Below, piece by piece: positions 4,201 to 56,365 of a DNA stretch of 64,000 nucleotides (the first letter of the stretch is position 1; every line of letters begins with the position of its first letter). The DNA is taken from positions 1-64,000 of the forward strand of contig CALXSE010000010.1 in the NCBI GenBank assembly GCA_944391085.1, in the 5' to 3' direction. Below the pieces are notes generated by a model. It saw only the letters and a program-made list of their open reading frames with translations. It searched no databases and had not been told where the DNA came from. Both the position numbers and the translations under genes were made by a program. The stretch is from an uncultured Kiritimatiellota bacterium. Lineage in GTDB: Bacteria > Verrucomicrobiota > Kiritimatiellia > RFP12 > DVOR01.

Positions 4201-5237
4201 GGTACACGCACTTCACCGACGCCAACGCGAAAGCCTTCCCGGACATCCTGCTTTACAGCAACGGCGCCGCCCCCGCGGGAGGCACCGCGCCGGAGCGTGG
4301 CGACATCGCGGGCGCAAACGCCGCGCTCCTCTGGGCGGAAGGCGCGGGAAGCCCGGATCTGGGCATCATCGTCGCCGGCGGCGACAGCGCCAAACTCACC
4401 GCGGACTGCGTCCCCATGCTCTGTTCCCTGACGCTTGCGCCCATCGGGGAGAGCGGGGCCCTGTCACGCGGCAAGGAGACGCCGAGCGTGGGGGAACTGC
4501 TGGTGCTCAACCCGAATGGCGGGACGCTGGCGGCCATTTTGCCCACGGAAAGCTACACGCCCACGATCGGCGCGAACGGCATCCCAAGCGGCACGCTCCA
4601 TGACGCCTGTGGCGCGGTCGCGGAGGCCCTCGTCAAAGACCCGTCCCTGACGGTCGGCGAGGCCTTCTCCCAAGCCGCGGGCGACACGTCGCTGACGCTC
4701 CTGGGCGACCCGACGGTGCGCATCGCGCCGTTCGCCGGGCAGGCGGCGGGGCCGGAGCTGGTCTTCCCGGATGCGGAGGAGGGGGCCGCGCCGACGCTCT
4801 CGGCGCAGGCGACGGCGGCCATCCTCGGCGCCATCGAGGAGGCGGGGCTGACGGGGCCCGTCGAGGTGGTGGCGCGGTCGGCCGACGGCGGCCAAAAGAG
4901 GCCGACGGCGGAGCTGAGCGACGCGCTGGCGTGCTTCGAGGGGCTGAAGCCGACCGTGAAGGAGGGCCGGGTGGTGGTGGCCTATGACTTCGGGATCTCG
5001 GACATCCGCTGGGACGGGACCGAGGTCGTGGCAACGCTGGCCGTGCGCGGCGGGGACGGACAAACGCCGACCTTCGCCGAAGGCAACGCCTACACGGTCG
5101 TGCAGGAGTCCGCGGCGCGGCGGGGCCCGCTTGCGGCCAGGGCCGAGGGCGCCGGGGGCGGCACGGTGACGGTGCGCTTTTCTCCCCCCGCGGAGGAGAC
5201 CTTCCTCTTCCACTTCTCCGTCTCGCCCGGGCAATAA
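1245..5237 (+). CDS. Secreted C10 (streptopain-like) peptidase with C-terminal C25-like domain
   Basis: A 1330-residue exported protein. Residues 1-18 form a signal peptide (MKKLLSICALVLSGTALA). Residues 30-245 resemble C10 cysteine peptidases: Cys57 lies in GCVAVAGAACMEW and His191 in GGGHAVVATGCG, followed by a GGYG segment, giving a plausible Cys-His dyad. Residues about 258-315 look like a carboxypeptidase regulatory (CarboxypepD_reg) beta-sandwich. The middle (about 460-780) is repetitive and beta-rich. Residues about 783-1160 resemble gingipain-type C25 domains (HVGRLPLR, LLGDPTVRI), but the expected catalytic His and Cys positions read SNG (near 1006) and AGGDS (near 1044-1048), so this domain looks inactive. 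No sorting signal is visible at the C terminus. Likely an extracellular or periplasmic protein-degrading enzyme. A strong hairpin terminator follows. Confidence 0.75.
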   Translation: MKKLLSICALVLSGTALAQGPDDLIAQLPGFPKHWNQAHLYNQVVRDEYGNGAPAGCVAVAGAACMEWFRHPAAFGERAYVSDKRELRTEALDWARLSPEPLDARGRRTAQTILYNLGLLTQIHYEEGGSSTTPLVNLAAALKAPQTGYASAYYVELGEGTTDADVAAAVWASLRCGSPVAMSIERDGGGHAVVATGCGTAASGAPLTQVFGGYGAAPTWMDVPTEMPIPGGYTYKRLASVVTGIVPAAPEGITSDAALPVLGTVVDAAGNPVPFATVTLSINGQEVAKTATDLQGRYGLWGWFGTPMTVTCEKTSAELPAQQHSGTSSDAVPGLPALRVPIAALREAIDNCQRRLELPSTLPTPTIHTDLKAAKAAADTAGNDILCLHSDNPEYSAWFLKKADSCTLFFADPRLDSGPADLTVHPEAPFLVFSSDETLKGFCAGNPSYNTFNKLITAPSFPTPDKLTGNTADIGASVHGKYLTVGNDVTATVTADVRVDTLTVNEPLTLVREHSFTWVTLKQYAPITFDGPNLRYVPPKVGDGSDSAFPRDFTVRGGAELHFANGDVSGYGLTAGTLTIGPGGVLCAAKRDTLRRPLVLAGGTVQLGDKDGNFGSLDLFSTPVSVTADSTVEALSGAVNPRLTIRQAASARTTTFTFKNDVRLDVRVPVSAAEGASLLITGTGTAAFHDTVSAPTAVDAGIRLEGGVFTGGLSLLSGARLTPDAPITVSGTFSAGSEIIVEGERSGLLVKGVTALPEGVTFKVPEGFAVEPTADGLRLVASHATAPDLYVGGAPAEALPDTPDGNLLVLTTTDRKESGLWEAYAAFRSSPEGGGWNVMVAALGNLGKGQTAADYIAQAGCSHVLLGLSADELPPLDGSSDRLAGFHVGRLPLRETVSMGTVVDVGKTGGTQQYEDVTDLACLQGYVAKLRRAGLRHAPGDLILMGESFGTQETYDNSTTAYGFPEWTFYYTTQSRGTTLYALCERYTHFTDANAKAFPDILLYSNGAAPAGGTAPERGDIAGANAALLWAEGAGSPDLGIIVAGGDSAKLTADCVPMLCSLTLAPIGESGALSRGKETPSVGELLVLNPNGGTLAAILPTESYTPTIGANGIPSGTLHDACGAVAEALVKDPSLTVGEAFSQAAGDTSLTLLGDPTVRIAPFAGQAAGPELVFPDAEEGAAPTLSAQATAAILGAIEEAGLTGPVEVVARSADGGQKRPTAELSDALACFEGLKPTVKEGRVVVAYDFGISDIRWDGTEVVATLAVRGGDGQTPTFAEGNAYTVVQESAARRGPLAARAEGAGGGTVTVRFSPPAEETFLFHFSVSPGQ

Positions 5238-33845: not shown

Positions 33846-33867
33846 AAAACACGCTCCTTCTCACATC

Positions 33868-34025
33868 CCTCGACGAGGCCCTGCGAGGCCCTTGCATGGT
33901 ACGTGAAAAGGAGCGTGCCAAATCCGGCACGCCCGCCAAACACGTTGCCCATGCAATGAAGTTCGCAGGTTTCGTCGAGGACAACTTGTTTGCGCAAAGC
34001 GCAATGAACGACGGCTTTCCCATCG
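33868..34025 (-). ncRNA. Structured leader RNA, copy A (upstream of GT4)
   Basis: On the minus strand: hairpin CGATGG-GAAAG-CCGTCG (34009-34025, one U-G wobble), hairpin TTGCGC-TTT-GCGCAA (33990-34004), then a long arm. P1 pairs 33868-33876 with 33972-33980 (9 bp), P2 33880-33886 with 33963-33969, P3 33892-33899 with 33949-33956, P4 33901-33905 with 33941-33945, and tip P5 33913-33919 with 33926-33932. Loops are J1/2 AA/GCC and J2/3 ACTTCA/GGGCC. Every helix is perfect Watson-Crick apart from the wobble, which would be a C-A mismatch on the other strand. The same architecture recurs at 56189 with different helix sequences. No known family was recognised. Confidence 0.75.
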
Positions 34026-34034
34026 CGTGCCCGT

Positions 34035-34043
34035 ATGATAGCA
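34035..34043 (-). promoter_or_regulatory. Extended -10 promoter of RNA copy A
   Basis: TGCTATCAT on the minus strand lies 9 bases before the first hairpin of the RNA. It directly follows the T-run of the arsP terminator, so the leader has its own start. Confidence 0.6.
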
Positions 34044-56029: not shown

Positions 56030-56161
56030 GTGTGTCGGTTCTCCTTCCCCGCCCGAGGGGTGGCCGAAGGAGGTCGGGGCGGGAAAGACGGGGGACCCCT
56101 TCGGTGTTGCGCCACGGACACGCGCCCGTGTGCGCCCGTTCCCGCCGCCCGACACAGCCAT

Positions 56162-56184
56162 ATAAAAAGACGCACCGCCTTTTT
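56162..56184 (-). terminator. Terminator-like hairpin between RNA copy B and the PEP-CTERM gene
   Basis: On the minus strand AAAAAGGCG, a GTG loop, then CGTCTTTTT pair over 9 bp with one G-U wobble, followed by ATAT. It lies 5 bases after the end of the RNA's P1, so transcription could be attenuated before the coding region. Confidence 0.45.
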
Positions 56185-56188
56185 ACGC

Positions 56189-56347
56189 TCTACTGAGGCC
56201 CTAGGAAAGCCCTGTCAAGAACGTGCAAAGAAAGTGCGCCAAATATGGCGCACTTTGCCGAACACGCTGTCTTGACATGAAGTTTCCTAGGTTTCAGTAG
56301 ACAGCTGTTTCGCGCAAAGCGCAAACGGAGCCGTGGCTTTCCCACGG
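56189..56347 (-). ncRNA. Structured leader RNA, copy B (upstream of PEP-CTERM gene)
   Basis: Minus-strand hairpin CCGTGG-GAAAG-CCACGG (56331-56347), a GCGC-TTT-GCGC hairpin (56312-56322), then the long arm: P1 56189-56196/56294-56301, P2 56200-56208/56283-56291 (9 bp), P3 56213-56220/56270-56277, P4 56222-56225/56263-56266, tip P5 56231-56240/56247-56256 (10 bp). Helix sequences differ from copy A at 33868, but loops J1/2 (AA/GCC) and J2/3 (CTTCA/GGGC), the GAAAG pentaloop, the GCGC hairpin and the spacing are the same. This is covariation, the standard sign of a functional RNA. A terminator-like hairpin follows. No known family is recognised. Confidence 0.78.
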
Positions 56348-56356
56348 CGTGCCAAT

Positions 56357-56365
56357 AGCATAGCA
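56357..56365 (-). promoter_or_regulatory. Extended -10 promoter of RNA copy B
   Basis: TGCTATGCT on the minus strand lies 9 bases before the first hairpin of the RNA, exactly the spacing seen at copy A. Confidence 0.6.

Follow-up and report, generated by a model that had tools for sequence, protein, structure and literature searches.

Two leader RNAs on the minus strand of the window

The window (the whole 64,000-nt stretch that was analysed) lies on contig C10 of the source assembly, which comprises 1.73 Mb in 30 contigs and is 89% complete. It contains two copies of a leader RNA on the minus strand, one directly before a gene for a GT4 family glycosyltransferase (copy A, full element 33846-34031, up to and including its T-run) and one upstream of a gene for a PEP-CTERM protein (copy B, full element 56164-56353, delimited in the same way). 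Both leaders had been placed here by a first-pass annotation, and the hairpins that they share, the long arm P1-P5, the sequences of the joints J1/2 and J2/3 and the -10 boxes are all as it described them. Each leader folds far better than its dinucleotide shuffles (z -5.6 and -9.0; 0/200 shuffles as good). The features of the two copies and their genes are as follows.

34035-34043, minus: copy A extended -10 box TGCTATCAT, separated from the element by 3 nt; the box is common to most of the genome copies
34026-34031, minus: copy A conserved 5' end, GGCACG; its complementarity to the tail sequence GCGTG could give a closing stem, P0
34008-34026, minus: copy A 5' hairpin H1 with GAAAG loop; covaries in the genus, where 6/6 pairs change on both sides
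33990-34004, minus: copy A hairpin H2, TTGCGC-TTT-GCGCAA; covaries
33979-33985, minus: copy A 5' switch strand GTTGTCC, whose partner in the second fold is GGGCAAC (strand-fit test)
33972-33980, minus: copy A P1 5' strand CCTCGACGA (covariation, strand-fit test)
33963-33969, minus: copy A P2 5' strand CCTGCGA, flanked by AA (J1/2) and CTTCA (J2/3)
33949-33956, minus: copy A P3 5' strand TTGCATGG (covariation, strand-fit test)
33944-33950, minus: copy A switch strand GGGCAAC, which pairs with GTTGTCC and overlaps the start of P4
33910-33937, minus: copy A P5 hairpin (putative antiterminator); its 3' strand doubles as the 5' arm of a terminator-like stem
33901-33905, minus: copy A P4 3' strand CACGT (covariation)
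33868-33899, minus: copy A 3' strands of P3, P2 and P1, with joints GGGC and GCC
33850-33867, minus: copy A tail GATGTGAGAAGGAGCGTG, complementary to the P5/P4 3' strand GGCACGCTCCTTTTCACGT (strand-fit test)
33846-33849, minus: copy A T-run, directly adjoined by the start codon
32712-33845, minus: GT4 family glycosyltransferase gene behind copy A (Pfam PF13692, PF00534, PF13439)
56357-56365, minus: copy B extended -10 box TGCTATGCT (promoter comparison over the genome copies)
56189-56353, minus: copy B core RNA, comprising the 5' end, H1, H2, the switch strands and P1-P5 (covariance model, covariation)
56164-56188, minus: copy B tail and T-run GCGTAAAAAGGCGGTGCGTCTTTTT (strand-fit test, T-run count)
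56060-56165, minus: second stretch 3' of the T-run, identified by sequence likeness (also at L016 315-419 and L017 783-889)
55382-56029, minus: PEP-CTERM protein gene behind copy B, from MKKTFLTAAFAALALG to PEPTALALLALGVAGVALRRRVA (PEP-CTERM model matches)

The second stretch listed for copy B, GTGTCYGTGGCGCAC.. CCGAAGGGG .. CCCTTCGGCCA, lies between the T-run and the start codon in PEP-CTERM-type copies and may represent another hairpin.

The element is repeated in the source genome and its long arm covaries

A blastn search with copy A located 13 places in the source genome, and these copies were used to build a covariance model (R1). Searching the genome with R1 recovered 29 clear copies (E 2e-33 to 6e-8), a count that leaves out a weak echo of copy B on the reverse strand (E 0.01). 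Most of these copies have an extended -10 box, TGNTATNNT, that ends 3-5 nt before the element, with weaker boxes in two or three, and nearly all are followed by a co-directional gene, which in one case encodes translation factor IF-1 at a distance of 268 nt. The fixed spacing of the -10 box, the co-directional genes and the T-run at the 3' end are consistent with transcription from the minus strand, as had been proposed from the two leaders.

Two neighbouring copies (L028 1501-1671 and L038 1501-1675, corresponding to G000:C4:2799-2969 and 4232-4406) are identical from the promoter through the 5' half as far as UUUC and diverge beyond it, and one of the two has a broken P1; gene conversion and an assembly chimera are candidate readings of the shared half. 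Behind a further copy (L049 1501-1664) the PEP-CTERM gene stops after 25 codons, a decayed target with its leader still in place.

The first-pass annotation had noted that the helices of copies A and B differ in sequence while remaining paired, and with 29 genome copies this is evidently no two-copy coincidence. In an alignment of 53 distinct sequences (A4), which was fitted to the structure by covariance model and so favours that structure, and in which kinship is ignored, 91.5% of cells were paired and 56/58 pairs carried changes on both sides. The covariation score of A4 was 0.633 compared with 0.227 for shuffled alignments (0/500), and it fell to 0.08-0.13 when partners were slid by 1-3 columns. 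An alignment of 46 mostly Bacteroidota sequences, subject to the same fitting and the same disregard of kinship, was 90.4% paired with 46/58 pairs doubly changed (covariation 0.513 versus 0.148 shuffled; 0/500). The margin over the shuffled and slid controls is large, and H2 covaries in both the genus-centred and the mostly Bacteroidota alignment. The joints J1/2 (AA/GCC) and J2/3 (UUUCA/RGGGC) are conserved across the two phyla; the sequence of P2 varies freely among elements that were located with the model and not with a pattern.

Distribution across two phyla

Within a scan of relatives R1 was positive in 44/59 genomes, the source genome included. A broader covariance model (R2), built from the 53 sequences, was positive in 123/288 genomes of the class, plus some other families of the phylum. 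We also searched a collection of 84,980 species with a pattern composed of two conserved core strands, for which less than one chance match was estimated. This yielded 90 stretches, and R2 confirmed 79/80 loci. The pattern-derived loci are mostly from Bacteroidota (Pedobacter, Mucilaginibacter, Lacibacter, Segatella, Xylanibacter, Alistipes and many rumen Bacteroidales), the rest being from Verrucomicrobiota. A covariance model had been suggested at first pass as a check on the RNA; once built and searched, it returned homologues in the genome, the class and Bacteroidota.

In a random sample of Bacteroidota the RNA is patchy, occurring in 16/296 species. The H1 hairpin is not kept outside the genus. 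Searches by blastn, a weak tool for this leader RNA, gave no match to copy A in phage records and none to a Bacteroidota copy in plasmid records. One locus (L159) is labelled Akkermansia muciniphila and belongs to a 7.3-Mb bin; Akkermansia genomes are smaller than 3 Mb, and the label therefore probably reflects a mis-binned contig.

A second fold shares strands with the arm

The arm drawn in the first-pass annotation is real, but it appears to be only one half of a two-state RNA, the fold of the tail (the approximately 20 nt following the arm) and the 5' segment having been missed. Support for this second fold comes from a strand-fit test, in which strands of the same element were compared with those of other elements and the pairs of the model were not used. 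Across 51 elements the tail paired with its own P5/P4 3' strand at -26.3 kcal/mol, compared with -17.5 kcal/mol for the strands of others; all 51/51 were above the row mean (0/5000 permutations). Likewise, the strand 5' of P1 fitted its own strand between P3 and P4 in 48/51 elements (0/5000), forming a helix that we call HA. The preference recurred in an independent set, 61 elements mainly from Bacteroidota, for 61/61 tail stems and 59/61 pairs of HA strands, and two control strand pairs showed no cognate preference. Preference of the 5' GGCACG end for its own tail was weak (32/5000 permutations). A pairing of GGCACG with P5a was dropped, own-element preference being absent (2533/5000 permutations).

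The tail stem measures 14-20 bp (mean 17 pairs). The T-run that follows it has 5 or more T within 9 nt in 48/56 and 58/62 elements and is weak or absent in a few copies. The HA helix has 5-7 bp in the genus of the window and up to approximately 17 bp in Bacteroidota. In Bacteroidota, where TTTGCTATTTATTCGG with CCGGATAAGTCAGTGAA is an example, HA takes up the P4 5' strand and occupies the bases of P4 (GATAAGTC:GACTTATC), so that P4 is excluded. On this covariation evidence the RNA has two mutually exclusive folds, each covarying and each sharing strands with the other.

The conserved joints are also complementary to each other, GAAA with UUUC and GGY with RCC. At the third pair of GGY:RCC we counted 52 C-G, 10 U-A, 4 U-G and 0 C-A (counts that ignore kinship), and the co-change from C-G to U-A supports a GGC:GCC inner stem. 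Together, the GAAA:UUUC and GGY:RCC stems would present the two strands of P2 as complementary loops. P2 (7-9 bp) would then be the helix common to both states, with the closed hairpins kissing only over a short helix.

In several rumen Bacteroidales (L135, L147, L149, L122 and others) the P4/tail motif GATAAGTC reappears immediately ahead of the start codon, approximately 45 nt past the T-run. Pairing of this repeat with the P4 3' strand is conceivable and might add another layer of control.

Fold energies were calculated with a nested model, which takes in neither pseudoknots nor kissing loops and for which state II is not the predicted ground state. With the tail free or forced, the folds lay close in energy in Verrucomicrobiota, differing by 1.0 (sd 6.3) kcal/mol, and differed by 5.8 (sd 8.4) kcal/mol in the second set. 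When the tail was free to pair anywhere, it was on P5/P4 at nested equilibrium in only 4/56 and 1/62 copies, partly because in the genus of the window it can pair with the 5' GGCACG. Proof of bistability was thus not obtained from the energy ensemble, and the rarity of this pairing at equilibrium implies that state II must be helped by kinetics, by kissing or by a factor. We base the claim of a switch on covariation and not on the calculated energies.

Surface and DNA-modification genes lie behind the element

In the source genome about 15 of the 29 downstream genes encode PEP-CTERM proteins. Other targets there are GT4 and GT8 glycosyltransferase genes, two GtrA genes, two acyltransferase genes, one for an FrhB-type protein and several for membrane proteins, and DNA modification or defence is represented by an EcoRI-type methylase, an Mrr/ResIII restriction enzyme and an MmeI-type methylase. 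The first-pass annotation had linked the leaders to the cell surface; surface genes are indeed present, but restriction-modification enzymes and other DNA methyltransferases belong to the set as well. A tally of 60 genes from the source genome and its relatives comprised PEP-CTERM proteins (12-13), EcoRI methylase (6), acyltransferase (4), GT4 (4), N6 methylase (3), GtrA (3) and ResIII (3). Among 66 pattern-derived, mostly Bacteroidota genes were MmeI-type methylase domains (14), EcoRI methylase (9), N6/N4 methylase (7), ResIII (4) and single antiphage-type proteins.

The association was also approached from the protein side. In the class, the RNA lies directly upstream of 18/30 EcoRI-type methylase genes, leaving out a nineteenth match (L238) in which the RNA lies behind the gene. 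In random Bacteroidota, 0/23 EcoRI-methylase loci carry the RNA, indicating that the strong methylase link in the pattern-derived set mainly reflects gut Bacteroidales. The methylase link is therefore real in the class and in gut Bacteroidales and is not universal. Model-found copies in random Bacteroidota precede more varied genes, encoding an ECF sigma factor, a TonB receptor, lipoproteins, and secreted and small proteins. The target genes have no common metabolic pathway.

A candidate two-state transcription attenuator

The best reading of these sequences, and one that we consider probable, is that the element is a 5' leader acting in cis as a two-state transcription attenuator. In state I the arm P1-P2-P3-P4-P5 would form, with P5/P4 as the antiterminator; because P5/P4 hold the strand needed by the tail, no terminator would arise and RNA polymerase is proposed to read into the gene. 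In state II the HA hairpin would form from the strand 5' of P1 and the one between P3 and P4, freeing the P4/P5 3' strand for the tail and giving a 14-20 bp stem followed by T's, a putative terminator. In this state two small hairpins, with stems GAAA:UUUC and GGY:RCC, would carry the two P2 strands as loops that can kiss, and such a kiss would be a natural first contact for the passage from state II to state I during transcription. Sequence comparison shows the RNA family, both sets of pairs, their mutual exclusion, the T-run, the position of the promoter and the gene set; we infer that the tail stem terminates transcription, that the loops make contact, and which of the two states is ON. More broadly, the attenuator may hold genes for restriction-modification, surface modification and secreted proteins in an off or heterogeneous state until they are needed.

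Attenuation coupled to a leader peptide was considered and rejected: the best ATG column is occupied in 12/53 and 19/71 sequences, and no conserved leader ORF was seen. Control of translation, with a ribosome-binding site in the tail hidden by pairing between the tail and P5b, is improbable. It would suit a dozen genome copies in which ATG follows the T-run and GGAG or GGAAG stands 8-10 nt before it, and many tails in the genus contain a GGAG/GGAAG that might serve to bind ribosomes. However, the start codons of PEP-CTERM genes and of most Bacteroidota genes lie a further 45-160 nt downstream. Leaders with an immediate start codon and leaders whose start codon comes only after 70-160 nt retain the tail and T-run alike, which favours transcriptional over purely translational control. 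A repeat or mobile element at the DNA level (a cassette end or inverted repeat) has been largely refuted and seems to us very improbable. While 29 dispersed copies with differing genes behind them, and two adjacent copies with an identical 5' half, might suggest one, the helix sequences diverge with compensatory changes, many copies share only short alike patches, the orientation of promoter and gene is fixed, and in the class so many EcoRI-type methylase genes directly follow the RNA.

What would select between the two folds of the attenuator bears on the remaining alternatives. Folding kinetics may decide between them as the RNA is transcribed, perhaps with a bias from a common factor; this is plausible, if short of probable. 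We regard a small molecule as a less likely trigger, and the corresponding riboswitch, in which a ligand would bind the conserved core around P2 (J1/2 AA/GCC, J2/3 UUUCA/RGGGC) and select one fold, as a tentative possibility. The two-state design with its terminator-like stem, the many copies and the conservation of the joints across two phyla all speak for it. On the other hand, the joint letters that are most conserved are complementary to each other in state II (GAAA:UUUC, GGY:RCC), so a binding pocket is not needed to explain their conservation; in addition, P2 varies freely in the model-found set and the targets share no pathway. A dedicated RNA-binding protein is doubtful as the trigger. 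Recognition of the leader by an antiterminator or attenuator protein, such as a NusG paralog of the RfaH/UpxY/LoaP type acting on JUMPstart/ops leaders, was considered because of the tail, GGAAGCGTGCTTTTT, which we take to resemble the RfaH ops sequence, and because of the many polysaccharide genes among the targets; the small purine loop of H1 could also be read by a protein. H1, though, is not kept outside the genus, and a search of the genome (89% complete) found one NusG, a canonical one beside secE and rplK. The RfaH/ops idea was demoted on finding no paralog, and a protein-bound leader of this kind is rather unlikely.

A more far-reaching version of the attenuator, which we offer as speculation and think unlikely in full, is a gene-independent, self-switching leader RNA of two phyla. 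A kiss between the HA and terminator hairpins would start the exchange into the antiterminator arm, and a phase-variation-like regulon of restriction-modification, phage-receptor-modifying and surface-protein genes would be set by RNA folding, not DNA inversion.

Novelty and relation to known regulatory leaders

At curated gathering thresholds Rfam 15 identified only tRNA in the window, in 20 diverged loci and in 12 mostly Bacteroidota loci. Permissive scans produced only unrelated microRNA-type chance matches far below threshold for the two leaders, and nothing up to E 0.5 for seven loci. A published description of the leader RNA was not found in a search of mostly open literature, outside which an earlier unnamed listing is possible. 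With no Rfam match to the leader in the window or in these 32 diverged loci, covarying homologues at hand and promoters placed for minus-strand transcription, the first-pass claim of an undescribed structured leader RNA is upheld. We take it for a new RNA class, one that probably works as an attenuator.

A conserved RNA of approximately 190 nt, absent from Rfam and present in up to about 30 copies per small genome, would rank among the larger unassigned classes of regulatory RNA. The two phyla over which it is spread, Verrucomicrobiota and Bacteroidota, are both prominent in animal guts. Genes for restriction-modification and anti-phage methylases here share one RNA design with genes for surface polysaccharides and PEP-CTERM proteins, raising a testable question: by which common signal, or by what chance event of folding, are defence and surface genes switched? 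Moreover, the two covarying folds provide a ready-made system for studies of co-transcriptional strand exchange.

Three groups of known leaders invite comparison. JUMPstart/ops (RfaH) and LoaP/UpxY leaders likewise precede polysaccharide and other surface operons, and the 3' GCGTGCTTTTT of the leader RNA appears to resemble ops; here there is no Rfam match and no NusG paralog was found in the genome, whereas a long covarying two-state RNA is present and also stands before restriction-modification genes. Riboswitches likewise exchange strands between an upstream fold and a terminator stem; in the present RNA, by contrast, the conserved letters can be explained by alternative pairing and the targets lack a common pathway. 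Terminator-antiterminator leaders likewise lie 5' of the gene that they regulate and share the mutually exclusive hairpins and the stem with T's behind it. The element described here differs from them in having no conserved leader peptide, a conserved core of approximately 165 nt, and up to about 30 unrelated targets per genome.
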